From a virus: a stretch of 26,991 nt of DNA. The notes beneath the pieces were generated by a model. It was not told the DNA's origin, did no database searches, and saw only the letters and a list, made by a program, of their open reading frames with translations. The position numbers and the translations under genes are program-made. Shown in pieces: positions 7,232-26,067 of this stretch. The stretch is from positions 1-26,991 of IMG/VR virus record IMGVR_UViG_3300049736_000762; one strand, given 5' to 3'. Positions within the stretch are counted from its first letter, which is position 1. Each line of letters starts with the position of its first letter.

Positions 7232-8023
7232 ATGAAAAGATTGATTTACCAAGTCGCTGTTGGCGCAAAATCTAGATTATATAAACACTGCATAGAATCA
7301 GCTAAAGTATACTGTGATATGCATGGCATTGATCATATAGTTCAAGGCGTACCTAAACTACGAATAAAACCTGACGTTTTTGCTACTGGTCGTAGTAAAG
7401 AGTCATACGAGAAACATGGCGGTTTTCTTCCAATTTTTGAGAAGGAAAACGCTTTTTCTTATTTTAAAGACTATGATCAAATTGCAATCATTGATGCTGA
7501 TATTTGGATTAGACCAGGCGCACCAAATATTTTTTTAGAGATGCATCCTGATACGGATTTTGGTGGTGTAGTAGAATCTGAATTACCAATCGATCCATGG
7601 TATAATCAAAAAATATTAGGTTATTCTCGCATGCAATATGGAACTCTTAAGATTCCTGCATGGTATGGTCAATATAATGACAAAACAGGTTTTCCATTTA
7701 TGAATATGGGTATGATGGTTATGAATAAATCATTTGCCGAATATCTTAATAACCAAACTCCAGAACAATTCATCCGCAGACCGGAATTTAAAAAATTCGT
7801 TGATGGTGTAGGACCGTGGAAATGGTCTACAGATCAAACGCTGCTTAACTACTGGATAAATACATGCGGTATGAATGTACAAAGACTTGATTGGAAATGG
7901 AATGCGCTGTTTACAGCTGTACGACCTGAAAGAATTAAAGAAGCAAACTTTGTACATTTCTTCTTAAAAGATAAATTACCTAATAAGGGTGAAAATGTAA
8001 AGGAGTTAATGACTAAAGTATGA
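7232..8023 (+). CDS. Glycosyltransferase, GT-A fold
   Basis: A 263-aa GT-A type glycosyltransferase. YDQIAIIDADIWIRPGAPN carries the DxD metal/nucleotide-sugar motif (D88, D90). Later GFPFMNMGMMVMNKS and STDQTLLNYW resemble the acceptor-binding and catalytic Asp region of GT8-like enzymes. It is the first gene of an AT-rich cassette. No standard promoter lies in the 27 nt before it and its ribosome-binding site is weak. It probably adds sugars to host lipopolysaccharide or to a phage structure. Confidence 0.75.
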   Translation: MKRLIYQVAVGAKSRLYKHCIESAKVYCDMHGIDHIVQGVPKLRIKPDVFATGRSKESYEKHGGFLPIFEKENAFSYFKDYDQIAIIDADIWIRPGAPNIFLEMHPDTDFGGVVESELPIDPWYNQKILGYSRMQYGTLKIPAWYGQYNDKTGFPFMNMGMMVMNKSFAEYLNNQTPEQFIRRPEFKKFVDGVGPWKWSTDQTLLNYWINTCGMNVQRLDWKWNALFTAVRPERIKEANFVHFFLKDKLPNKGENVKELMTKV

Positions 8024-8724
8024 TTATTGATAATATTTCTAAAAAAATATTTGTGCATATTCCAAAAAATGCAGGTATGACAATTAGACATAGCCCATTT
8101 CTAAAAGATAAAATTCTAATTAATGGTGCACATGCACATAAATCTCCAGAATATACAAATGGTTTATTAAAAACTATGAATGCCATTGGTGATCACCATG
8201 GTATAGAACATGCTCGTTGGATAGATCTAAAGCCTAAATATACAAAATCACATGATGCATTTGCAATCGTTCGTAATCCATGGGATAGAGTGGTTTCACG
8301 GTATTTTTTCGCAAAAAAAGTTATTGAAGTTGAGAAAAAACAAAAGAAAGATTACGCTGATACATCTACCTTTGAAGCTTTCTTAGAAGAACGGCATAAA
8401 TGGGGCGATAAAGAATATATGTGGCATAGAGCTGTACGTGGATGGTATCCAGCCGTTGATCATGTTACCGATTCTAAAGGTAAACTTAAATGTGATATGC
8501 TAAGATTAGAACATCTCAATAAAGATCTAATTGCTTATTTTAAAATCCCAATGATGTCACGCCCTCGAAATGTAACCGCTATGAATAAGGGTACATATAA
8601 AGATATGTACAACAAAGAAACAATTCAAATCATTGCCGACTGGTATAAAAAAGATATTGATATGTGGGGATTTGATTTTGATAGTGGACCAACTAAAAAT
8701 TATTGGAGATTAGATAATGAGTGA
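8020..8724 (+). CDS. Sulfotransferase family protein
   Basis: A 234-aa PAPS-dependent sulfotransferase-like protein. FVHIPKNAGMTIR (residues 11-23) is the 5'-phosphosulfate loop, and AIVRNPWDRVVSRYFF (82-97) is the 3'-phosphate-binding motif with R85 and S93. This form (HIPKNAG...RNPWDR) is typical of the carbohydrate sulfotransferases in the Sulfotransfer_2 group. The likely substrate is a surface polysaccharide or glycan made by the neighbouring glycosyltransferases. It overlaps both neighbours (4 nt and 8 nt). Confidence 0.85.
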   Translation: MIIDNISKKIFVHIPKNAGMTIRHSPFLKDKILINGAHAHKSPEYTNGLLKTMNAIGDHHGIEHARWIDLKPKYTKSHDAFAIVRNPWDRVVSRYFFAKKVIEVEKKQKKDYADTSTFEAFLEERHKWGDKEYMWHRAVRGWYPAVDHVTDSKGKLKCDMLRLEHLNKDLIAYFKIPMMSRPRNVTAMNKGTYKDMYNKETIQIIADWYKKDIDMWGFDFDSGPTKNYWRLDNE

Positions 8725-9355
8725 ACTCGGAAATCTATTTAATAAGTACGGATGTGATAAAACTAAAAAACATCGATACGAAAAAATCTATGAACCTGTA
8801 TTTAAAAAACTAAAAGATAAAACAGATCTAAGAATCTTAGAAATCGGGGTGTTTAATGGCCATAGTACAGAAGCATTATTAGATTATTTTCCTCATGCCC
8901 ATATGTATGGCATTGATATTTTTGAACGCACAAATCCAGAAGATATCGAAGCTTATATGGATCATGATGATCGTACACATTGGCTAAAGGCAAATAGTAC
9001 AGATCCTAATTTGTATAAAATGTTACGAGATAAATTTGGCAAATCTACTAAATTTGATATTATTATTGATGACGGTATGCATACACCAAAAGCTAATAAA
9101 GAAACATTTGAAAATCTATATAGAACGTTGAAAAAAGATGGTGTATATTTTATTGAGGATGTTTGGCCTTTAGAATTAATGAATGATACAGAAATGGAAC
9201 ATCATTGGATACAAAGATTTCCTGATCGATATAACTTGATGGATAATCAACTTTTTCTTAATTCTTTAGAAAGATCTGGCTTAAGAGTTTTAAGACATGA
9301 TCATCGCAAATTAACTGGACATGCAGATAGTTATATTATAGAGTTAAGATCATGA
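8717..9355 (+). CDS. SAM-dependent methyltransferase
   Basis: A 212-aa class I methyltransferase. Motif I is LRILEIGVFNGHS (E42, G44, G48); the following strand ends YGIDIF and motif IV is FDIIIDDGMH. The N-terminal segment (NKYGCDKTKKHRYEKIYEP) and the DDGMHTP block resemble sugar-modifying methyltransferases encoded in polysaccharide clusters (Methyltransf_24-like). It probably methylates a glycan made by this cassette. Overlaps both neighbours. Confidence 0.82.
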   Translation: MSELGNLFNKYGCDKTKKHRYEKIYEPVFKKLKDKTDLRILEIGVFNGHSTEALLDYFPHAHMYGIDIFERTNPEDIEAYMDHDDRTHWLKANSTDPNLYKMLRDKFGKSTKFDIIIDDGMHTPKANKETFENLYRTLKKDGVYFIEDVWPLELMNDTEMEHHWIQRFPDRYNLMDNQLFLNSLERSGLRVLRHDHRKLTGHADSYIIELRS

Positions 9356-10059
9356 AAGCATATGTAATAACTATTTTAGGTCATCTGTTATCAGAAAAGG
9401 CTGCTGAAACTTGTATTGCATCATCCCACCACGTTGGCAATGAATTTGAAGTAAAAAACTTCGAAGCTTGCACTCCTATCGATTGCGGCGAAGTAATGGC
9501 TGATTACGGTATAGAATGGAATTATCCATGGGAAGGTGAAGAAACTGATATGCGTAGTGGTTTAAAAAAATCAGCATATCAAACTCGTGATCCTCTTGCT
9601 CGAGTAGCATGCGCTGCTAGTCACTATAAAATATGGCAAGAGTGTCAAAACACGAATGAACCTATTTTAGTGCTAGAGCATGATTCAGTTTTTAAATATA
9701 AACTTAATCCAGAATTTATTATAAAATCGAGATATAATATTGTAGGATTAAATAATCCAATAGGTGCCACACGTAAAGCAAGGCAATTTGATCAATGCAT
9801 TAAAAATGAAAGAGAAAAAGGTTACGATCATATTTGTAAGATTCCTACAGTTGATGCATTTGATATTCCTCAAGGTTTAGCTGGAAATAGCGCATACATA
9901 ATTAAACCTAAAGGAGCTAGTGCTGTTATAGCAGCAGTAGATGATTATGGATTATGGCCAAATGATGCAATTATGTGTAAACAATTAGTTAAAAAAATGG
10001 GCGTTACTACTAAATATTATACACATGTTCAAGGTTTACCATCAACAACTACGGATTAA
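9352..10059 (+). CDS. GT25-like glycosyltransferase (first copy)
   Basis: A 235-aa protein with MKAYVITIL at the N-terminus, ASHYKIWQEC (residues 89-98) and ILVLEHDSVF with EHD at 109-111. This order matches the GT25 family of LPS glycosyltransferases (short N-terminal strand, SH..lW helix, ExD motif). The following gene is a clear relative with the same three blocks, so this pair looks like an old duplication. Overlaps the methyltransferase by 4 nt. Substrate unknown. Confidence 0.72.
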   Translation: MKAYVITILGHLLSEKAAETCIASSHHVGNEFEVKNFEACTPIDCGEVMADYGIEWNYPWEGEETDMRSGLKKSAYQTRDPLARVACAASHYKIWQECQNTNEPILVLEHDSVFKYKLNPEFIIKSRYNIVGLNNPIGATRKARQFDQCIKNEREKGYDHICKIPTVDAFDIPQGLAGNSAYIIKPKGASAVIAAVDDYGLWPNDAIMCKQLVKKMGVTTKYYTHVQGLPSTTTD

Positions 10060-10061
10060 AA

Positions 10062-10706
10062 ATGAAATCTTTTGTAATTACAATTGAATCACTTGAGAAA
10101 TCAGTGCAAGCAGCAAATCGATGTATAAAGTCTGGTAAAAAATATGGATTTGAAATCGAAAGATTTAAAGCTACTACACCAACAGATAATCCAATTGAGC
10201 TCATACATAAATTAGGTATTTCTCCACATGGTTTTGCAGAAAAATATTCTAGAGTAGAAAATTGTATAGCAGCATTTTTATCTCATTATTATTTATGGAA
10301 AAAAGCTGTACAAACAAAAGAGAACATAGCTATATTTGAACACGATGCCATTGTTACTGGTTCATTACCACCTAATTTTAAATTTAATAAAGTAATAACA
10401 TTTTCAAAACCATCATACGGTAAATTTAATACGCCAATAAAAATTGGTGTTGATGGCTTAGTACAAAAACAATATTTTGGTGGAGCGCATGGATATATAG
10501 TAAGTCCAAGCGGTGCAAAAGAATTGATGGAAAAGGCAAAAATAGAAGCAGCACCAACAGATGTATTTTTAAACTTAGATTTATTTCCATGGTTAGAAGA
10601 ATTATATCCATGGATTTGTATAGCTTCTGATTCATTTACTACAATTCAAAAAGAAGCTGGTTGTTTGGCTAAACATAGATACGATGAGACATACGAGATT
10701 ATATAA
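10062..10706 (+). CDS. GT25-like glycosyltransferase (second copy)
   Basis: A 214-aa relative of the preceding protein: MKSFVITIE start, FLSHYYLWKKA (73-83), IAIFEHDAIV with EHD at 93-95, then GGAHGYIVSPSGAKEL. It is probably a GT25-type sugar transferase. Base composition here is extremely AT-rich (13 G+C in the 60 bases from 10381, by hand count). It starts 2 nt after its paralogue and overlaps the next gene by one base. Paralogy is inferred from the shared motif order; the copies are quite diverged. Confidence 0.72.
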   Translation: MKSFVITIESLEKSVQAANRCIKSGKKYGFEIERFKATTPTDNPIELIHKLGISPHGFAEKYSRVENCIAAFLSHYYLWKKAVQTKENIAIFEHDAIVTGSLPPNFKFNKVITFSKPSYGKFNTPIKIGVDGLVQKQYFGGAHGYIVSPSGAKELMEKAKIEAAPTDVFLNLDLFPWLEELYPWICIASDSFTTIQKEAGCLAKHRYDETYEII

Positions 10707-11365
10707 TGAATAGCATGGAAATTCAAGACCAAATTTTTCTGACAGGTTGTGATCATAAAACAGAATGGCAATTGCCATGGTTTTTGAAAAATTTTAAAAA
10801 ACAAAGAAATAAAACTAAACTAATAATTGCTGATTTCGGTATGTCACCCGAGATGAATAAAATAGCAGTAAATCATCCATGCGTAAAAGCAGTAATGAGT
10901 TTACAGAGTAAAGGTAAAGAAAAGGGGTGGTTCTTAAAACCTTTAGCTATGTATCATGTGCCATCTAAAAAAGCTATTTGGCTTGATACTGACTGTCAAG
11001 TAGTAAAAAATATTGATAGTATGTTTGATTTACTCGAGCCTAACAAACTCAATATGATTGAAGATAAACCGTGGACTAAACGTAGAGGAGAAACATGGTA
11101 TAATTCTGGTGTTGTAGGATTTATTAATAAGCCAGGAATATTAGCGCAATGGTGTAATGCTATTGCCCAAGAACAAAATATTGGCGACCAAGAAATGCTT
11201 CATGGCATATTAAATCCTATTACTCAAATGACGTGGATTAATCCTTTGCCTAGTAAATATAATGTAATGAGATTACAAATTGAGAATGATGATTATCAAG
11301 GCCAAATATCTATTATGCATTGGACTGGAGAAAAAGGTAATGATAGAATTAGGAGTATGATGTAA
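10706..11365 (+). CDS. GT8-like glycosyltransferase
   Basis: A 219-aa glycosyltransferase-like protein. AIWLDTDCQVV carries a DxD motif (D94, D96), WYNSGVVGF and NIGDQEMLH match the GT-A acceptor-side motifs, and IMHWTGEKG resembles the terminal H-x2-G-x-K of GT8 enzymes. It probably transfers a hexose or related sugar from a nucleotide donor. One-base overlaps (TAATG type) tie it to both neighbours. Confidence 0.75.
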   Translation: MNSMEIQDQIFLTGCDHKTEWQLPWFLKNFKKQRNKTKLIIADFGMSPEMNKIAVNHPCVKAVMSLQSKGKEKGWFLKPLAMYHVPSKKAIWLDTDCQVVKNIDSMFDLLEPNKLNMIEDKPWTKRRGETWYNSGVVGFINKPGILAQWCNAIAQEQNIGDQEMLHGILNPITQMTWINPLPSKYNVMRLQIENDDYQGQISIMHWTGEKGNDRIRSMM

Positions 11366-11994
11366 TGCCTAGAATTGTACAAATAATTGGAAACGGTGAT
11401 TGTGCAGTATATTACAATGAAGAGCCGAAAAGAAAAGGGCTAAAACTTACTTGTAATGTTTCTCCATTTACAGTTGATGGTGTTTATGCTACTTGCATTG
11501 TAGATTTTAAAATGATGAATACACTTCATAAAGGTGGAGTTACTATTCCAGGAGAATGGATTTGTGGAGCAAGACCAAAAGAATATTGTAATAGAAATCC
11601 AAAATTTCATTTACAAATTGCAGGTCAAATAAAAGAATTTTATACTAAACTACCTAAATATGCTGCTAACTACACAGACTTTAATTGTGGTCATATGGCA
11701 ACGTATTATGCATGCGAGAAACTAAAAGCTGATGAAGTACATCTTTGGGGATTTGATTCTATATTTGATTTTAATTTACGTAGTTACACAGATGTTGTCA
11801 TAAACTCTGACAGAGGTGGTATGAATAATCATCGCCTTGCAAATAATTGGCGACCACTATGGAAAAATATGTTTAAAGATTTTGATGGTACTGGTAAACA
11901 CCAAAGAGTAAAGTTTGTATTACATCATAAACATAATAAATTAAAATTTCAAGCTTCAGATAATGTTGAAATTGAAGTCCATGGCAAAAAATAA
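11365..11994 (+). CDS. Possible glycosyltransferase (GT29/42-like or MptE-like)
   Basis: A 209-aa protein starting MPRIVQIIGNGDCAVYYNEE. The N-terminal IGNGxC loop, the early strand-loop pattern, and GHMATYYACEKLKADEVHLW followed by GFDS recall the sialyltransferase-like and MptE-like folds, where this loop and a G.D element frame the nucleotide site. This is pattern similarity only; the substrate is unknown. It is the last large gene of the surface-modification cassette and overlaps the next small ORF. Confidence 0.5.
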   Translation: MPRIVQIIGNGDCAVYYNEEPKRKGLKLTCNVSPFTVDGVYATCIVDFKMMNTLHKGGVTIPGEWICGARPKEYCNRNPKFHLQIAGQIKEFYTKLPKYAANYTDFNCGHMATYYACEKLKADEVHLWGFDSIFDFNLRSYTDVVINSDRGGMNNHRLANNWRPLWKNMFKDFDGTGKHQRVKFVLHHKHNKLKFQASDNVEIEVHGKK

Positions 11995-12599: not shown

Positions 12600-12807
12600 A
12601 TTTAGAGATAAATATTTAAATACACCGGAAATTGACTTCAAAAACCATTGGGCTGTAGGTATAGAATATGCTATTATCGGAAGTCGCGGTGATAAATATA
12701 CAGTAGGATTCACAGATAAAGGTTTTTCGTGTGAGTGTATTGGTATGGCGGTGCACGGAAAATGCAAACATACAAAGGAAATATCTGATAAATGGCTATT
12801 AGCCTAG
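12589..12807 (+). CDS. Small SWIM zinc-finger protein
   Basis: A 72-aa protein ending in FSCECIGMAVHGKCKHTKEI, a CxC-x(n)-CxH arrangement that defines the SWIM zinc finger, found in DNA- and protein-binding proteins. The preceding part (YTVGFTDKGF) is the usual beta hairpin before the finger. A stand-alone SWIM domain could be a DNA-binding regulator. ATG 12589 has AAGGAG upstream. It overlaps both neighbours. Confidence 0.78.
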   Translation: MPRKFRDKYLNTPEIDFKNHWAVGIEYAIIGSRGDKYTVGFTDKGFSCECIGMAVHGKCKHTKEISDKWLLA

Positions 12808-13607
12808 AACGGTTATTTATAGCAATTGCAACGCATCTATTAACAATATATTTCATCTATAATAGTTTATATGTAGATGGAGCATATTGGTTATTGGCTC
12901 TTGTTTTTGTTTTATTTCAATTACAAGTTTTTTCTGTATCTACTTTTTTGCATAAGGGTGTGACACACGGTGTGTGGAGATTTAAATCTAAATTTGTAGA
13001 ACAATGCATTGTTATTTACTTGTCAATATCTGGACATATATTTCCTGGTGGTCCATTAGATTGGGCCGTTGTTCATAGATTGCACCACGATCATTTAGAT
13101 GATGATCTTGATTCTCATAGTCCTTCTAGAATAGGAATGTTAGCTGCGCACTTTCACCTATGGAAACCTACGCCTGAACATGCCACTGTAGAACGTAAAG
13201 TTTATTTCGATTTACTAAAAAATTATAGACATTTATGGATTTTTAGTAAATATCCAAAATCAATAGCTTTTGCATTATGGTCTATTATTATTGTTATTTT
13301 TGGTATAGAAGGTCTTAGTATATTAGCTGCAGCATCATTTATAGAATTTCATGGATTAGGTGTTATTGACGCATATGCGCATACAAAAAAAGACGAAACT
13401 CGTAATGTACCATGGTATGTGTGGATTATAGGTTTTAATGATCCTGAAGCAATGTATCATAAAGAACATCATGAACATCCATACGCATATAGTTTTAATC
13501 CAGGATGGTTAGATTATCCATCCCGCCTCATGGAATTATTTGCAAAATGTGGTATAGTTGATATTAAAGGCAAAAAATTGGATGTATTATCTAAGACTAA
13601 AGTTTGA
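12792..13607 (+). CDS. Membrane fatty acid desaturase (acyl-CoA delta-9 type)
   Basis: A 271-aa membrane di-iron desaturase. The three histidine boxes are intact: HKGVTH (H54, H59), HRLHH (H95, H98, H99) and HKEHH (H223, H226, H227). A further IDAYAH (H197) lies where stearoyl-CoA desaturases carry an additional iron ligand. Hydrophobic stretches at about residues 5-50 and 158-185 fit membrane insertion. The enzyme would place a cis double bond in acyl chains of host lipids, using host electron carriers. It overlaps the SWIM gene by 16 nt and the next gene by 26 nt. Confidence 0.9.
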   Translation: MAISLERLFIAIATHLLTIYFIYNSLYVDGAYWLLALVFVLFQLQVFSVSTFLHKGVTHGVWRFKSKFVEQCIVIYLSISGHIFPGGPLDWAVVHRLHHDHLDDDLDSHSPSRIGMLAAHFHLWKPTPEHATVERKVYFDLLKNYRHLWIFSKYPKSIAFALWSIIIVIFGIEGLSILAAASFIEFHGLGVIDAYAHTKKDETRNVPWYVWIIGFNDPEAMYHKEHHEHPYAYSFNPGWLDYPSRLMELFAKCGIVDIKGKKLDVLSKTKV

Positions 13608-15473: not shown

Positions 15474-15550
15474 GGTTCCGTAGCTCAGATGGATAGAGCA
15501 ACAGCCTTCTAAGCTGTGGGTCGAGGGTTCGAATCCTTCCGGAATCGCCA
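15474..15550 (+). tRNA. tRNA-Arg (anticodon UCU)
   Basis: A full cloverleaf. Acceptor stem GGTTCCG pairs with CGGAATC (one G-U). D-arm GCTC/GAGC. Anticodon stem ACAGC/GCTGT with loop CTTCTAA, so the anticodon is TCT at 15508-15510. T-arm GAGGG-TTCGAAT-CCTTC with one G-U. Discriminator G and an encoded CCA at 15548-15550. It reads AGA/AGG, and AGA is common in these AT-rich phage genes, so it would support their translation. T4 also carries a tRNA-Arg of this type. Confidence 0.96.
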
Positions 15551-17237: not shown

Positions 17238-17864
17238 ATGAGAAGTGTTTTGTTAATGGCAGGTGTATTAGGTCTATCTGCGTGTAGTGAAAAGTTGCCA
17301 CCAAATTTGGCAATATCAGAAAAAGAATTTGAATATCGTGTTGAACAGGTAGAGAACCAAATCGATGATATGCCTAAATGGTATACCGATATTCCAAAAG
17401 AAGATGAAGCTGTATATGCAGTCGGTACTGCAGTCACACCAGATCTTCAACTCGCAGTAGATATAGCAGTACTATCAGCTAAGACTACACTAGCCGATCG
17501 TGTTGATAGCCGCATCAGATCTCAGCTAAAAACTTTTAAATCTAAATTAGGCGCTACTGATTTTGATTCTAATGTTGCTGTTGAGTTTGAACAAGTAACA
17601 CGTAATTTGATTGCAGACGCAGACGTGGCTGGTTATACAATCAAAGAAAATGTCATTGTACAAAACGGTACACAATATCGATCATACGTTTTATTAGAGT
17701 ATCGTAATGAAGTTGCAGCAAATGTAATTCGCACTAGAGTCGCTAAAAATGCTGCACTATTATCTAAGCTTAAATCTACTAAAGCTTGGAAAGAACTCGA
17801 TGATAATGTAGAAGCTCAAAACGAGGCCGATCTAAAAGAACTAGAGGTACTTGCCGATTCATGA
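17238..17864 (+). CDS. LPP20-family lipoprotein
   Basis: ATG 17238 is chosen because GGAG (17228-17231) lies at the right distance; an ATG at 17226 would overlap it. The 208-aa protein has a lipoprotein signal with lipobox LSAC (Cys16). The mature protein has MPKWYTDIPKEDEAVYAVGT followed by AKTTLADRV, the PxWy...YAvG...A...A pattern of LPP20-like lipoproteins. These bacterial outer-membrane or surface lipoproteins have no settled function. A phage copy could alter the host envelope or block superinfection. It overlaps the fabF-like gene by 4 nt. Confidence 0.8.
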   Translation: MRSVLLMAGVLGLSACSEKLPPNLAISEKEFEYRVEQVENQIDDMPKWYTDIPKEDEAVYAVGTAVTPDLQLAVDIAVLSAKTTLADRVDSRIRSQLKTFKSKLGATDFDSNVAVEFEQVTRNLIADADVAGYTIKENVIVQNGTQYRSYVLLEYRNEVAANVIRTRVAKNAALLSKLKSTKAWKELDDNVEAQNEADLKELEVLADS

Positions 17865-19006
17865 ATCGAATAGCCGTTACTGGTATTGGTATGATCGATG
17901 CGTTGGGCAATAATCCTGTCCAATGTTTCGATAACCTATTAAATGACAAAACCTATGATAGACATTTTGATGATATCGTTTTACCTAGAAAATCAGTAAA
18001 GGTAGATCGATGTCACATGCCTACTACTGACATTATTATACCAGAAGATTTTAATCCAAAGCTATTAAGATATATGCCTCGTTCTATGCATACCGCGTTA
18101 CATAGTGTAAATGCCGCATTAAAGGACGCTAGTGTACTGCACAGTAGTAACGTAGGTGTATTTTATTCTACGTGTACTGCAAAAGATGGAATGTATGAAG
18201 CAATTGTAATTAAAGAAAAACTTCACCCACTGTATTCTTTAAATCTTCCAGTAGATTCAAGCGCAAGTATGATATCGCAACATTGGGGATTTACTGGAAT
18301 TAATTTTGCAGCGCAGTCTGCTTGCGCAACTGGTCTCGTCACTATTGATATAGCTATGAAATATTTAAATGATTATGATTATGTGATATGTGGAGGATCA
18401 GATAATGGTGTCAATGAAGTAGATCTTGATGTGTTTAGTTCTTTAAGAGCATTAGGCAATAAATCAATGCCATTCGATGATGATCGATCAGGGTTTGTTA
18501 TGGGAGAAGGTGCAGGTTGTCTAATACTAGAAACTGAAGAAAAAGCTAGGGCGAGAGGAGCACGAATACATGCTTATCTCCATCCTGTAGCTCATGCTTC
18601 GGATGCCTTTAATCGTACTAGTCCAAGTGGTGTTGGTGCACGAACTACTATGCATAATGCTTTAGTAAGTGCAGAAGTAGATACAGTTGACTATGTAAAT
18701 GCTCATGGTACATCAACTCCGGTTGGTGATAAAGTAGAGTATGAAGCTATTCAAGATATAGGTGATTTATTAGTTACTTCAAATAAAGGAAAAATTGGCC
18801 ATACGTTTGCTGCAGCTGGAATTTTAGAAACAATTTATTCAATTTTATCTATACAACATGGTATAATACCGCACACCCATAATTGCATAAATACAGAGTA
18901 TAAAAACATAGTAAAATCTCCAATTAAAACAGATGTTGATTTTGTTTTAAATAATTCATTTGGCTTTGGTGGTAAATGTGCTTCGATGGTCATAGGTGTA
19001 CAATGA
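17861..19006 (+). CDS. fabF: Beta-ketoacyl-ACP synthase (FabF/KAS II-like)
   Basis: A 381-aa thiolase-fold condensing enzyme, close to the usual 410 aa of FabF. Catalytic residues are intact: Cys155 in AAQSACATG, His282 in NAHGTSTPVGD, and Lys309 and His314 in SNKGKIGHTFAAAG. PFDDDRSGFVMGEGAG (204-219) and NNSFGFGGKCAS near the C-terminus are also typical. It would extend acyl-ACP chains by two carbons with malonyl-ACP and host ACP; in E. coli FabF makes cis-vaccenate and controls chain composition. It lies between a lipoprotein and a 2OG oxygenase, overlapping both by 4 nt. No ACP gene is visible in the window. Confidence 0.92.
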   Translation: MNRIAVTGIGMIDALGNNPVQCFDNLLNDKTYDRHFDDIVLPRKSVKVDRCHMPTTDIIIPEDFNPKLLRYMPRSMHTALHSVNAALKDASVLHSSNVGVFYSTCTAKDGMYEAIVIKEKLHPLYSLNLPVDSSASMISQHWGFTGINFAAQSACATGLVTIDIAMKYLNDYDYVICGGSDNGVNEVDLDVFSSLRALGNKSMPFDDDRSGFVMGEGAGCLILETEEKARARGARIHAYLHPVAHASDAFNRTSPSGVGARTTMHNALVSAEVDTVDYVNAHGTSTPVGDKVEYEAIQDIGDLLVTSNKGKIGHTFAAAGILETIYSILSIQHGIIPHTHNCINTEYKNIVKSPIKTDVDFVLNNSFGFGGKCASMVIGVQ

Positions 19007-19635
19007 TAGAAATATATGATTTAGATAATGTTTCATTCTTAAAAGAATATCAAAGTTTTTTTCAAAATAATCATGTAGAAGTGGACGAAAAACATCCAGT
19101 AAAAAAACATGTACACGCTTCTTTTATTGAAAATCAATCATTAGCTATTAGTTTTTTAAATAACTATAATGCTATTTACGAAGATTGGATTCGTTTACAA
19201 GAATTTAGATTTATGTTCAAATTAGAACCAGATAAGCCCACCATGTGGCCACACATAGATTTTGAACCAAAAGACTGCACCAGACTACGCTCGCGAGTAA
19301 AGAGGATATTGGTATACGCTAACGAAGTCTGGGATGATTCATGGGGTGGAGGTACATATTTTTCTCCATTTGAAGCATACGAATGCACACATAGATATAC
19401 ACCACGTACCAGTAAGAAAGTTTTTATTGAGAACGCTACAAGAGTCGAGAATAAACCTGGTAGGGCAGTTATTTTTGATGTAGATGAATATCATTTGCCA
19501 CAAGAATTTAGCGGTAATACACACCCAAGATTTATATACGGAGGATTATTAATTAGATCAGATTCTTTGGATTTGATTGAAAAGCTCGAAGTGCCTAATG
19601 CAAAAACTGGTAGAGCTGTAATTGGATTAAAATAA
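19003..19635 (+). CDS. 2OG-Fe(II) oxygenase
   Basis: A 210-aa protein with the iron and 2-oxoglutarate motifs of the 2OG-Fe(II) dioxygenases: HxD in MWPHIDF (H84, D86), the distal His in VDEYHLPQEF (H164), and R176 in HPRFIYGGL for 2OG binding. WDDSWGGGTYFSPFE is a usual core strand pattern in phage members. The substrate is unknown; phage enzymes of this type are proposed to modify proteins or nucleic acids. Its position behind fabF also allows lipid or acyl-derived substrates. Start ATG 19003 (ATGA overlap). Confidence 0.82.
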   Translation: MIEIYDLDNVSFLKEYQSFFQNNHVEVDEKHPVKKHVHASFIENQSLAISFLNNYNAIYEDWIRLQEFRFMFKLEPDKPTMWPHIDFEPKDCTRLRSRVKRILVYANEVWDDSWGGGTYFSPFEAYECTHRYTPRTSKKVFIENATRVENKPGRAVIFDVDEYHLPQEFSGNTHPRFIYGGLLIRSDSLDLIEKLEVPNAKTGRAVIGLK

Positions 19636-22785: not shown

Positions 22786-24492
22786 TTAGTTACCATAAAC
22801 ACTATGCATAGACCCATACATATGAGCGTATGGGTCTATCGAACTACCAAATCCTGTTATGGCAGCCTGATTATGATTTATAGAATGATCAGATCCATCT
22901 ACCATTACAGTTCCTCCTCCCATACCAGCACTAGCCATATTTCTCATACCAGAATTTTGCATTGAATTAAATTCTGCAAGTGTCATACCATTATCTAAAG
23001 TTACACCGCTGACAGTATTTTGACTAATAGGCGATAATGTACCAAATTCACCACCTGCTCCACCAGATTGTATAGGTGTTATAGAGCTACCTAATGCACC
23101 AGCCGATACTTTATTATTAATCATATCGTTTACAAATCCAAATGGAAATCCAAAAGCATCAACTTTTTTATCAAATAGATACTGCGCAAGTGCCATGCCG
23201 ATGGCGTCGCCACCGAGTGATCCTAACACACCACCTAAAATACCACCACCTAGTGCACCAAGTGGTGCTGCAGGACCAGCAAGAATTGCTCCAAGCGTTG
23301 CACCTCCAGCAAATCCTGATAGTCCACCTATGGCGCTACCTAATGCACCCCCTAATTCACCAATCTTACTATCGACAGGTCCATCTTTTGATAAAATCAT
23401 TGCTACTTCTGCAGCTCCGATTAAGGCTGAGATTGGACCACCAGCTCTTAAAAATTTCATGAAGGTTTTTAATTTAGGGAATTTATTTGCCATTCCTTCA
23501 TTTAATTGAGCAGCTTTATCAGCGGCTTCTGTTGCAATTGCAGTATTTAATGCTGCTCCAGATAATCTAGCACCTTTTAAGTTTGTCATTTGGCCTTGAG
23601 CATTACGCGTAAAGTTTCTTGATGGTCTTGCGTTTTGTGCTACTTGTGTTCGTACTCCAGCAGCCGTCACCGCAGTACCTAATGCTGCAGCCGTGGCTCC
23701 TTTAACTGCATTCATTGTTATTTTGAATGGTGCCATTAATGCTCTTAATGCTAAAGATACTGCAGCACCTGGGGCAAAGAGAGCAAAGAGTGCACCCATA
23801 GTAATACCCAAATCTTTAACTGCTGCAATAGGATCTGCACCGATTTTAGCCATTTGTTGTTCATCGCCTAATAAACCTCTTAGATTATCAAGAGTATTAC
23901 CAAATGATTTACTAACTGTATCAAATATTCCTGATATGCTCGGAAATCCGTCTTTAAACCATCCTACATCTTCAAATAACTTTTTAGCTTGCTCCCCTAA
24001 TTTTTCTATTGATTCCTTATTTTTAGGAGTCATCAATGCACCGAGAGCCCCACCAAGTAATGCAAATCTTTTACCAAATATTAGACCAATGCCACCAAAC
24101 GTAACTGCACGGCCAACAGCATCTGCAAGCTCTGCGTTACCTGTTTCTCCCATTACATAGTCTGCTATCTCATCAGCAAACATTGTACCAATCAAGCCTG
24201 GTATTCCGCGCTTTAACATTCTTAAACCGAGACCAGCACCAAATCCTAAGAAGCTACCTAAACCTCCTCGTGCTGCATCTACACCTTGACCTATAAAGCC
24301 AGGAGCCTTTGTAGATGCACCTCCACGAGCAGCAGCCTCTCTTTTGTCTTCGAGTTCTTGACTATCGTCTTCATTAATCTCACGTAAGAATGCAGAAAAA
24401 TTAGCGTTAAGTTCGCTTAATTCTTTGCGTTGAGCTTCTCCTTGTTCGTTAGAAGCTTCGAGTTGTTCTTTGACGTCAGCTAATGTAGCCAT
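22786..24492 (-). CDS. Tape-measure-like tail/baseplate hub protein
   Basis: A 568-aa protein with a charged coiled-coil start (MATLADVKEQLEASNEQGEA...) followed by long Gly/Ala/Leu-rich hydrophobic stretches (about residues 71-150, 225-285, 350-435) and a flexible, Met/Gly-rich C-terminus. This composition is typical of tape-measure or hub/tail-lysin-type proteins (T4 gp29 is 590 aa). GAGGA before ATG 24492 is a good ribosome-binding site. It lies downstream of gp26 and the gp51-like frame, and ends immediately against the gp32 stop. A role in tail length or hub assembly is inferred. Confidence 0.68.
   Translation of the reverse strand: MATLADVKEQLEASNEQGEAQRKELSELNANFSAFLREINEDDSQELEDKREAAARGGASTKAPGFIGQGVDAARGGLGSFLGFGAGLGLRMLKRGIPGLIGTMFADEIADYVMGETGNAELADAVGRAVTFGGIGLIFGKRFALLGGALGALMTPKNKESIEKLGEQAKKLFEDVGWFKDGFPSISGIFDTVSKSFGNTLDNLRGLLGDEQQMAKIGADPIAAVKDLGITMGALFALFAPGAAVSLALRALMAPFKITMNAVKGATAAALGTAVTAAGVRTQVAQNARPSRNFTRNAQGQMTNLKGARLSGAALNTAIATEAADKAAQLNEGMANKFPKLKTFMKFLRAGGPISALIGAAEVAMILSKDGPVDSKIGELGGALGSAIGGLSGFAGGATLGAILAGPAAPLGALGGGILGGVLGSLGGDAIGMALAQYLFDKKVDAFGFPFGFVNDMINNKVSAGALGSSITPIQSGGAGGEFGTLSPISQNTVSGVTLDNGMTLAEFNSMQNSGMRNMASAGMGGGTVMVDGSDHSINHNQAAITGFGSSIDPYAHMYGSMHSVYGN
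22809..22838. repeat. 11-bp perfect hairpin at the convergent junction
   Basis: TAGACCCATAC (22809-22819) pairs with GTATGGGTCTA (22828-22838) around an 8-nt loop, 24 nt past the gp32 stop and inside the 3' coding end of the minus-strand gene. No T run follows on either strand, so it may stop or stabilise gp32 mRNA rather than act as a classic terminator. Confidence 0.7.
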
Positions 24493-24493
24493 T

Positions 24494-24679
24494 TTATCCT
24501 CGTTGTTGCGCTGCTTGTTGTTCTTTTTCTTTTAATTCATCTATCAACATAGAAACATAAATCTCCCTCTCCCATGGCATCATATAGTCTAGATCAGAAA
24601 GAGCATAATGAAAGTTTTGCAATAATTGGTAGTTAACTCTAAAATAATTTTCCAGACTATCGTGAGAGAGGTTTATTAA
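24494..24679 (-). CDS. 51: gp51-like hub assembly protein, no ATG (frameshift or CTG start)
   Basis: An open frame between gp26 and the tape-measure-like gene reads ...SLENYFRVNYQLLQ, then MMPWEREIYVSMLIDEL, and ends at TAA 24494-24496. The MPWER.IYV.ML pattern resembles T4 gp51-type hub assembly factors. No ATG or GTG opens the frame: the first ATG codons fall inside MMPWER, and a CTG at 24653-24655 has no ribosome-binding site. The frame is in the -1 register to gp26 and becomes open exactly at gp26's T-run, so a -1 shift at T_TTT_TTT would give a 298-aa gp26-gp51 fusion. The coordinates given are the post-slip extent; a CTG start would give 53 aa at 24494-24655. Confidence 0.65.
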   Translation of the reverse strand, partial: LINLSHDSLENYFRVNYQLLQNFHYALSDLDYMMPWEREIYVSMLIDELKEKEQQAAQQRG

Positions 24680-25389
24680 AAAAAATCATCAAGTCCTTTC
24701 AATAATTTAGTGTTTTCGGTGTCACAGTGTTTACACTTAAATTTAATTTCTGTCTGAAGCGATGGCATATTTTCTACCCATTTTGTAATTAATTCAAATT
24801 GACTAGTTGATAGCGAATCAACAAAAGCTAATACTTCTTCATGTGATTCATCACTAATTTTTATCGCTTCTTCTTCAGTTAATACCGAGTCTAAACATGA
24901 CACAATAAGATCCATAGTCATATCAGTTTCAGACCTACCTTCTGTAAAAAATGTACTGCTAGTCATAAAATAATTATATGTTGGATGTCGCAGTTTAACA
25001 GAAATCTCATCAGTCAGTTTTACTGTGTTTGTTTCCTTTTTATCCTTTACTTCAATAGAATCTAAATTTACTTTTACATCATTCATTTCTTGACAGTTAG
25101 AACAAGAAATCTGAATATCAGCTGTTTCACCTACAGATTTAGCTCTGATTTTGGTGAACATATAATCTACATCATAAGTAGTTAATCGATTTAAATCAAC
25201 ATCTCCACTTACACATGCATCAATTGTTTCTATAATTGCCTTTAGTATTTCTTTTTTGTTTTGTGATTCATAACCTAACATTAATACTTTTTGTTCTTTA
25301 ACCAAAAATGGTCTAAAACGTACAGTTTCATTAAGTGATGGTATAACTAAATCATACTTTGGTATTTCATTCAACTTTGGTAGTGCCAT
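24676..25389 (-). CDS. 26: gp26-like baseplate hub / tail assembly chaperone protein
   Basis: A 237-aa protein of the T4 gp26 type: MALPKLNEIPKYDLVIPSLN start, VRFRPFLVKEQKVLM, then a helical middle and TYNYF. Two CxxC pairs (C96/C99, CSNC; C219/C222, CKHC) may form one zinc site. T4 gp26 acts in baseplate hub assembly. The last codons are GAT GAT TTT TTT TAA, a run of eight T, which places a slippery heptamer at the stop. AGGAGAA precedes ATG 25389. It lies directly after the tube gene. Confidence 0.82.
   Translation of the reverse strand: MALPKLNEIPKYDLVIPSLNETVRFRPFLVKEQKVLMLGYESQNKKEILKAIIETIDACVSGDVDLNRLTTYDVDYMFTKIRAKSVGETADIQISCSNCQEMNDVKVNLDSIEVKDKKETNTVKLTDEISVKLRHPTYNYFMTSSTFFTEGRSETDMTMDLIVSCLDSVLTEEEAIKISDESHEEVLAFVDSLSTSQFELITKWVENMPSLQTEIKFKCKHCDTENTKLLKGLDDFF
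24679..24685 (-). other. Candidate -1 ribosomal frameshift site (T_TTT_TTT)
   Basis: On the minus strand the gp26 codons end GAT TTT TTT TAA, so the heptamer T TTT TTT (X_XXY_YYZ) sits right before the stop. Slipping back one base continues as TTA ATA AAC into the gp51-like frame. No firm downstream stem or pseudoknot was established by eye. Confidence 0.55.
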
Positions 25390-25398
25390 TCAATTCTC

Positions 25399-26067
25399 CT
25401 ATAATCCAAAGCTCCCTAATCCAGCAGATGCTGAGATCCAACCTTGGCCACCTTCAGTATTTATCCAATTTGTATATGATATTCCTACAGTCAATTGCAC
25501 TAGACCGTCGAGCTCATTGGTTAATTCAATTGCTGAAACGGTTGTAGGAAATGCATCTAATAATTCAACTGAGTATACACTACTACCACCTAATCCTAGG
25601 TTAAGTCTAATAGGTCCAGCTGATATAGTTTTGCCTGCCAATGGCCTTCTTAATTGGTGTATTTTAATTGGTTTAGCGTAATCTTTTTTGTACATCGCTT
25701 CACCAGGTATCTGTTGTATTGTCATATCTCTCCACTCGTCAAAATATTTTACAATACCATAGTCATTCATACAATAAAATGTCAAAGAAACCTGATCAAC
25801 AACATAACCGTATGCAACCTGTTGATTTTCTGCTCCAACATTTCTTTCGTGAGTTAATATTCTTTTACCAGGTAATTGAGCTTGAGAACATAATATATTC
25901 ATGTCCTCTCCACCTAATAGAGATCCAATTTTCGATAATATTCCTGCAAAGCCGGTCAAACCTGGTTTTCCACCGAGATTTGTAGGTAACTGTACTAAAA
26001 ACTGGTTACTTCGAGCAAATCCTAACTTCAAAGATGCTGCTGATTTGAATTGATCTATTGTTGTCAT
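25399..26067 (-). CDS. gp19-family tail tube / tube-initiator protein
   Basis: A 222-aa protein with the T4 tail-tube layout: a short N-terminal helix, FARSNQFLVQL, ILCSQAQLPGKRI, YGYVVDQVSLTFYCMNDYGI, VKYFDEWRDM, YKKDYAKPIKIHQL, and a final VELLDAFPTTVSAIELTNEL then VQLTVGISYTNW. The order parallels T4 gp19 (NLFQVEI, ALPAGI, VTVMNDE, FVDWQ, YKKSAIVRQY, LQTFEVTLALDYW-like end) but with about 60 extra residues. It may be the major tube protein or a baseplate tube-initiator paralogue such as gp48 or gp54. ATG 26067 overlaps the previous stop. Confidence 0.75.
   Translation of the reverse strand: MTTIDQFKSAASLKLGFARSNQFLVQLPTNLGGKPGLTGFAGILSKIGSLLGGEDMNILCSQAQLPGKRILTHERNVGAENQQVAYGYVVDQVSLTFYCMNDYGIVKYFDEWRDMTIQQIPGEAMYKKDYAKPIKIHQLRRPLAGKTISAGPIRLNLGLGGSSVYSVELLDAFPTTVSAIELTNELDGLVQLTVGISYTNWINTEGGQGWISASAGLGSFGL

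Follow-up and report, generated by a model that had tools for sequence, protein, structure and literature searches.

Frameshifting in T4-like phages, with two genes in T4, was reportedly proposed by Vladimirov in 2022, and the abstract of that study is said to name T4 genes 26 and 51. In two later papers that cite Vladimirov 2022, T4-like TAC-N genes are stated to have poly-T -1 frameshift signals (PMC12846349), some T4-like phages are stated to have one gene for the short form and another for the fused form (PMC10885494), and the chaperones so described have the same short and long forms as those considered here. Because these signals and genes have already been stated for T4-like phages, the idea of a gp26-gp51 frameshift is right and is not new as a kind. 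In phage lambda, ribosomes shift to the -1 frame close to the 3' end of the chaperone gene, which gives a short and a long product (gpG and gpGT), and the chaperone works together with the tail tube and tape measure proteins; the 2016 review that describes this also gives G-T frameshifting as conserved 'except T4' (PMC5009743). In E. coli dnaX, a cellular gene, a Shine-Dalgarno (SD) sequence lies upstream of the heptamer A_AAA_AAG and a local hairpin lies downstream (PMC5009743).

The window analyzed in this study is a stretch of 26,991 nucleotides of viral DNA (IMG/VR record IMGVR_UViG_3300049736_000762) from a marine phage related to T4. As for lambda G/GT, two overlapping frames were found in a -1 relation, the first with a slippery site close to its 3' end (Table 1). 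This locus differs from lambda in its slippery sequence, in the greater length of gp26 and in the two CxxC pairs that gp26 contains. The 3' end of gp26 reads GGA CTT GAT GAT TTT TTT TAA (protein C-terminus ...GLDDFF*), and the initial annotation had correctly placed T_TTT_TTT directly ahead of the stop, in both sequence and coordinates (24685-24679). Its description of a -1 frame that a TGA closes upstream and that stays open through a gp51-like ORF was borne out, as the frame runs to the TAA at 24496-24494. A one-base back step at T_TTT_TTT gives the continuation FFLINLSHDSLENYF... for 63 codons, and translation confirmed the predicted length of 298 aa for the fusion (TAC-NC). The stop of the -1 frame ends one base ahead of the ATG (24492) of the next gene. 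Both strands were checked, and the arrangement of heptamer and -1 frame is unique within the window.

Table 1. Coordinates of the chaperone locus, its proposed frameshift signals and its neighbours, given as positions in the window
Feature	Coordinates	Strand	Supporting result
Preceding gene, tail tube protein	25399..26067	-	phrog_45 tail tube, E 2e-29
gp26 / TAC-N, predicted short tail assembly chaperone, 237 aa	24676..25389	-	Pfam T4_baseplate PF12322, E 7.5e-58; phrog_150 baseplate hub
gp26 start ATG; stop TAA	25389; 24678-24676	-	
SD-like AAAGGA, 8 nt 5' of heptamer, proposed 5' stimulator	24694..24699	-	synonymous-shuffle z -10, 49 non-redundant loci
Slippery heptamer U_UUU_UUU (DNA TTTTTTT)	24679..24685	-	U_UUU_UUN in 165/167 non-redundant relatives
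Predicted long-range stem, 5' arm CCUCUCUCACG, begins 7 nt past heptamer	24661..24671	-	covariation and synonymous-null folding
Predicted long-range stem, 3' arm CAUGGGAGAGG, on PWER codons	24566..24576	-	covariation and synonymous-null folding
-1 frame, gp51 / predicted TAC-C extension, 63 codons, stop TAA 24496-24494	24494..24685	-	phrog_634 baseplate hub assembly catalyst, E 1.8e-22; aligns with T4 gp51 C-terminus
Downstream gene, 568 aa, rich in Gly/Ala, putative tail tape measure protein	22786..24492	-	weak PHROG tape measure match, E 9e-5; C48C1 homolog, E 1e-11

The chaperone gene adjoins the tail tube gene upstream and the Gly/Ala-rich ORF downstream, the tape measure label of the latter coming from weak matches and from the annotation of relatives. 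A long ORF lies directly 3' of the chaperone in 96 of 122 testable loci, and in HTVC008M and Cr30 the long ORF just downstream carries a tape measure annotation. Comparison of the 568-aa protein with T4 gp29 gave no significant match; from the relatives and the weak matches, it is a putative tape measure protein.

Relatives were collected by tblastn of gp26 (693 phage records) and from IMG/VR loci picked by gp26 similarity alone, and were reduced to 167 non-redundant loci at <92% identity over the last 150 aa. NNT TTT TTN was located within 8 codons of the stop in 162 of these, with a last base of U in 86, C in 52, A in 22 and G in 2. With two loci in which the heptamer lies slightly further upstream of the stop (L152 and L161) and one in which it is masked by an apparent sequencing frameshift inside gp26 (L340), U_UUU_UUN in the same phase was counted in 165 of 167. 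Wherever the locus did not run off its contig, the -1 frame stayed open over 56 codons or more, and the U-run, the open frame and its -1 relation to gp26 were kept down to ~33% gp26 identity. The arrangement was found in phages of Synechococcus, Prochlorococcus, Pelagibacter, Vibrio, Pseudomonas, Stenotrophomonas, Caulobacter, Sinorhizobium, Rhizobium, Aeromonas, Desulfovibrio and Agrobacterium. The codon preceding the U's encoded D, N, S, G or H and was always NNT in the first 49 non-redundant loci (59% NNT expected). Since the arrangement is unique in the window and kept in 165 of 167 relatives, it is not due to chance. The conserved U-run, frame relation and open frame support the programmed -1 frameshift put forward in the initial annotation, and its refuting case, a start codon with no slippery run, was absent among marine T4-like phages.

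U6 was missing only in two distant phages, Vibrio phage K493 (L097, 1938-2678) and the Ackermannviridae phage IME250 (L098, 2181-2831). Both retain the gp51-like -1 frame without the U-run, and K493 has GTG/ATG codons near the junction; these homologs may use other sites or initiation.

Upstream of the heptamer, SD-like cores (AAGG, AGGA, GGAG, GAGG) were concentrated at 8-11 nt across the 49 non-redundant loci, and mean anti-SD pairing was -6.3 kcal/mol vs. -4.6 ± 0.17 kcal/mol in synonymous shuffles. Downstream RNA structure was analyzed in 112 loci with a common ungapped block. A stem was predicted between the third base of codon 4 plus codons 5-6 (xLS) and the E-R codons of PWERE, ~31 codons on. 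It was present in 108 of 112 minimum-energy folds, against 24 ± 3.6 under synonymous shuffling, and was the sole consensus structure returned by RNAalifold. Two third-base pairs ranked first and second of 86 and fall in one helix register: L3/E3 (78 CG, 28 UA, 4 UG, 2 CA) and codon4/R3 (65 CG, 24 UA, 22 CA, 1 AA). Among all column pairs, L3/E3 was top (tree-aware E 0.03) and codon4/R3 was third and alone not significant (tree-aware E 0.95), these E-values being approximate, as they derive from simple custom nulls. Six same-branch double changes were counted for L3/E3 (P ~2e-6 if branches are weighted equally). The Leu5 codon was CTC in 80 loci and CTT in 32, with none other, vs. 4% and 18% in gp26, where TTA is the most frequent Leu codon. 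The fold of the window itself was unremarkable against dinucleotide shuffles (z -1.05), with z -2.8 against synonymous shuffles. A short local hairpin at the junction was rejected, as folding of 70 nt was inconsistent (window z +0.5) and structure emerged only with the far PWER codons. An Rfam search found no family matching the stem, and 19 more distant phages fold better than their own synonymous shuffles (z -5 to -10). To our knowledge, no stem of this kind is known in lambda.

The SD-like element, the X_XXY_YYZ heptamer and a predicted 3' RNA structure at 5-9 nt correspond to the three parts of the dnaX signal, from which this locus differs in having U_UUU_UUN and a stem that closes ~84 nt on, at the PWER codons. 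Both predicted flanking elements support frameshifting at translation. Frameshifting could occur while the stem serves another role, for instance in stabilizing the mRNA or regulating the gene that follows, as its 3' arm is purine-rich and the tape-measure-like gene begins 74 nt past that arm. This is improbable, as the stem begins 7 nt past the heptamer in all 112 loci, and in the P-SSM2-like phages (n = 27) a different, strong local hairpin (z -23) takes up roughly the same position, the pattern that a frameshift stimulator should show. That hairpin (GUAUGGCUCA...UGAGUCAUAC; L003, 3708-3780, and 26 related loci) lies directly past the heptamer and includes the annotated gp51 ATG. We think it likely that an RNA element not described before, an 11-position long-range stem within the long-form tail with its 5' arm 7 nt past the heptamer, drives the -1 frameshift of T4-like chaperone genes, and that some lineages have exchanged the stem (for the local hairpin, in P-SSM2-like phages) and kept the heptamer and SD-like element, T4 having two genes and no signal. 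A literature search of open-access scope found no account of stimulatory RNA in T4-like chaperone genes. The novelty lies in the detail of the signal, chiefly in the covarying stem, which seems undescribed, and in the local hairpin that P-SSM2-like phages have in its place.

Profile comparisons were made with the T4 families, for which shuffled controls did not exceed 1.2%. The short form is homologous to T4-type gp26 (99.8%), and the fusion to T4-type gp51 over nearly its whole length, including the extension (hhalign probability 99.2%, E 6e-20); the extension alone matched gp51 (95.7%) and gave no match to gp26. T4-type gp26 and gp51 also matched each other (99.2%). Because of these three relationships, T4 is read as holding the short and the long form as two paralogous genes. 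Unlike the locus described here, gene 26 (208 aa) and gene 51 (249 aa) of T4 lie on opposite strands in divergent orientation and lack the heptamer. T4 gp26 and gp51 are listed as hub assembly chaperones in a 2010 review, in which gp51 is essential, with function unknown, and reported absent from the particle (PMC3004832).

An AlphaFold2 model of gp26 (pLDDT 87) was compared with solved structures, for which a sequence search had returned nothing useful. Residues 1-96 of the model matched two entries, 3fgx with Z 8.5 and 2ob9, the tail assembly chaperone of HK97, with Z 7.7 (rmsd 2.9, 84 aligned), the next unrelated match having Z 2.9; the Foldseek E-value itself was weak (0.9). The N-terminal domain is thus predicted to have the TAC-N fold. 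Since T4 gp51 corresponds to the fusion, T4 gp26 to the short form, and the gp26 model resembles the HK97 chaperone, the two products are assigned to the lambda G/GT type of chaperone pair. Of the two CxxC pairs in gp26 (24676-25389, minus strand), one is C96/C99 and the other, CKHC, is near the C-terminus and missing in P-SSM2 gp26; the pairs suggest a zinc site.

An alternative is that gp51 is a separate small gene read by re-initiation or internal initiation, the U-run then being a side effect of two Phe codons in a row. In deposited annotations gp51 often appears as a gene of its own, and P-SSM2, DLP_6, ValKK3 and Cr30 offer an ATG no more than ~6 codons from the heptamer; these four yet retain U_UUU_UU(U/C). 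The initial annotation had described the downstream ORF as having no ATG or GTG, which is so for its first 34 codons only; counted from 0 at the heptamer, ATG occurs at codons 34, 35 and 45 and TTG at 21 and 46, all within the conserved domain. The first 20 codons contain no ATG, GTG or TTG, yet are conserved across relatives, and in most relatives the conserved residues LSHDSLENYY stand upstream of any start codon. An SD-like AAAGGA is present, contrary to the claim that the ORF has no ribosome-binding site, but no start codon lies at a usable distance from it. A separate gp51 is very unlikely: the window and most LSH-type relatives lack ATG, GTG and TTG in the first 10-34 codons, which are conserved as protein; the NNT rule, the conservation of the heptamer in 165 of 167 loci and the stem would be left unexplained; and the fusion has its equivalent in T4 gp51, one protein read in a single frame. 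Because some relatives have a gp51 start codon near the junction, initiation could contribute to gp51 in those phages. Slippage of RNA polymerase, rather than ribosomes, on the eight consecutive T's of the window is also very unlikely, as 76 of 162 loci have a run of just six T's with C, A or G next, and the conserved heptamer phase, the SD-like element and the RNA stem would all act at the ribosome.

With high confidence, gp26 and the -1 frame are considered one frameshifted gene for two tail assembly chaperone forms, its heptamer aided by the SD-like AAAGGA and the stem. The basis lies in the sequence (heptamer, frame relation, SD-like element, RNA stem and T4 gp26/gp51 homology), and from it we infer slippage, its rate, the boost from stem and SD-like element, and the chaperone action. 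AAAGGA would pair with 16S rRNA behind the ribosome and hold it at U_UUU_UUU, where the stem, 7 nt ahead and closing on the PWER codons, would also hold it. Most ribosomes would halt at TAA and release the 237-aa short form, and a minority would shift back by a single nucleotide and continue to the 298-aa long form. If the two forms behave like gpG and gpGT, the tape measure protein of the next gene would be coated by the short form, and tail tube subunits would be recruited by the long one.

In hundreds of deposited genomes of cyanophages and marine myophages, gp26 and gp51 are listed separately, as 'baseplate hub' and 'hub assembly catalyst', or gp51 is left out. One frameshifted chaperone gene would change the annotation of these genomes. 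The chaperone reading also points to a function for T4 gp51, given as essential with unknown function in the review cited above (PMC3004832), and the covarying stem offers a testable model of a frameshift stimulator exchanged for another structure between lineages.

Other genes were noted on the plus strand of the window. A complete beta-ketoacyl synthase (17861-19006; Pfam PF00109/PF02801), an unusual cargo for a T4-like phage, lies beside a possible 2OG-Fe(II) oxygenase (18976-19635; sub-threshold match). A 271-aa protein with the His-rich motifs HRLHHDH and HKEHHEHP (12792-13607) had no Pfam match, and inspection by eye suggests a fatty acid desaturase. The gene block at 7232-11994, in which at least three genes resemble glycosyltransferase, sulfotransferase and methyltransferase, possibly serves surface glycan modification. 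One tRNA gene was identified with Rfam (15474-15547).
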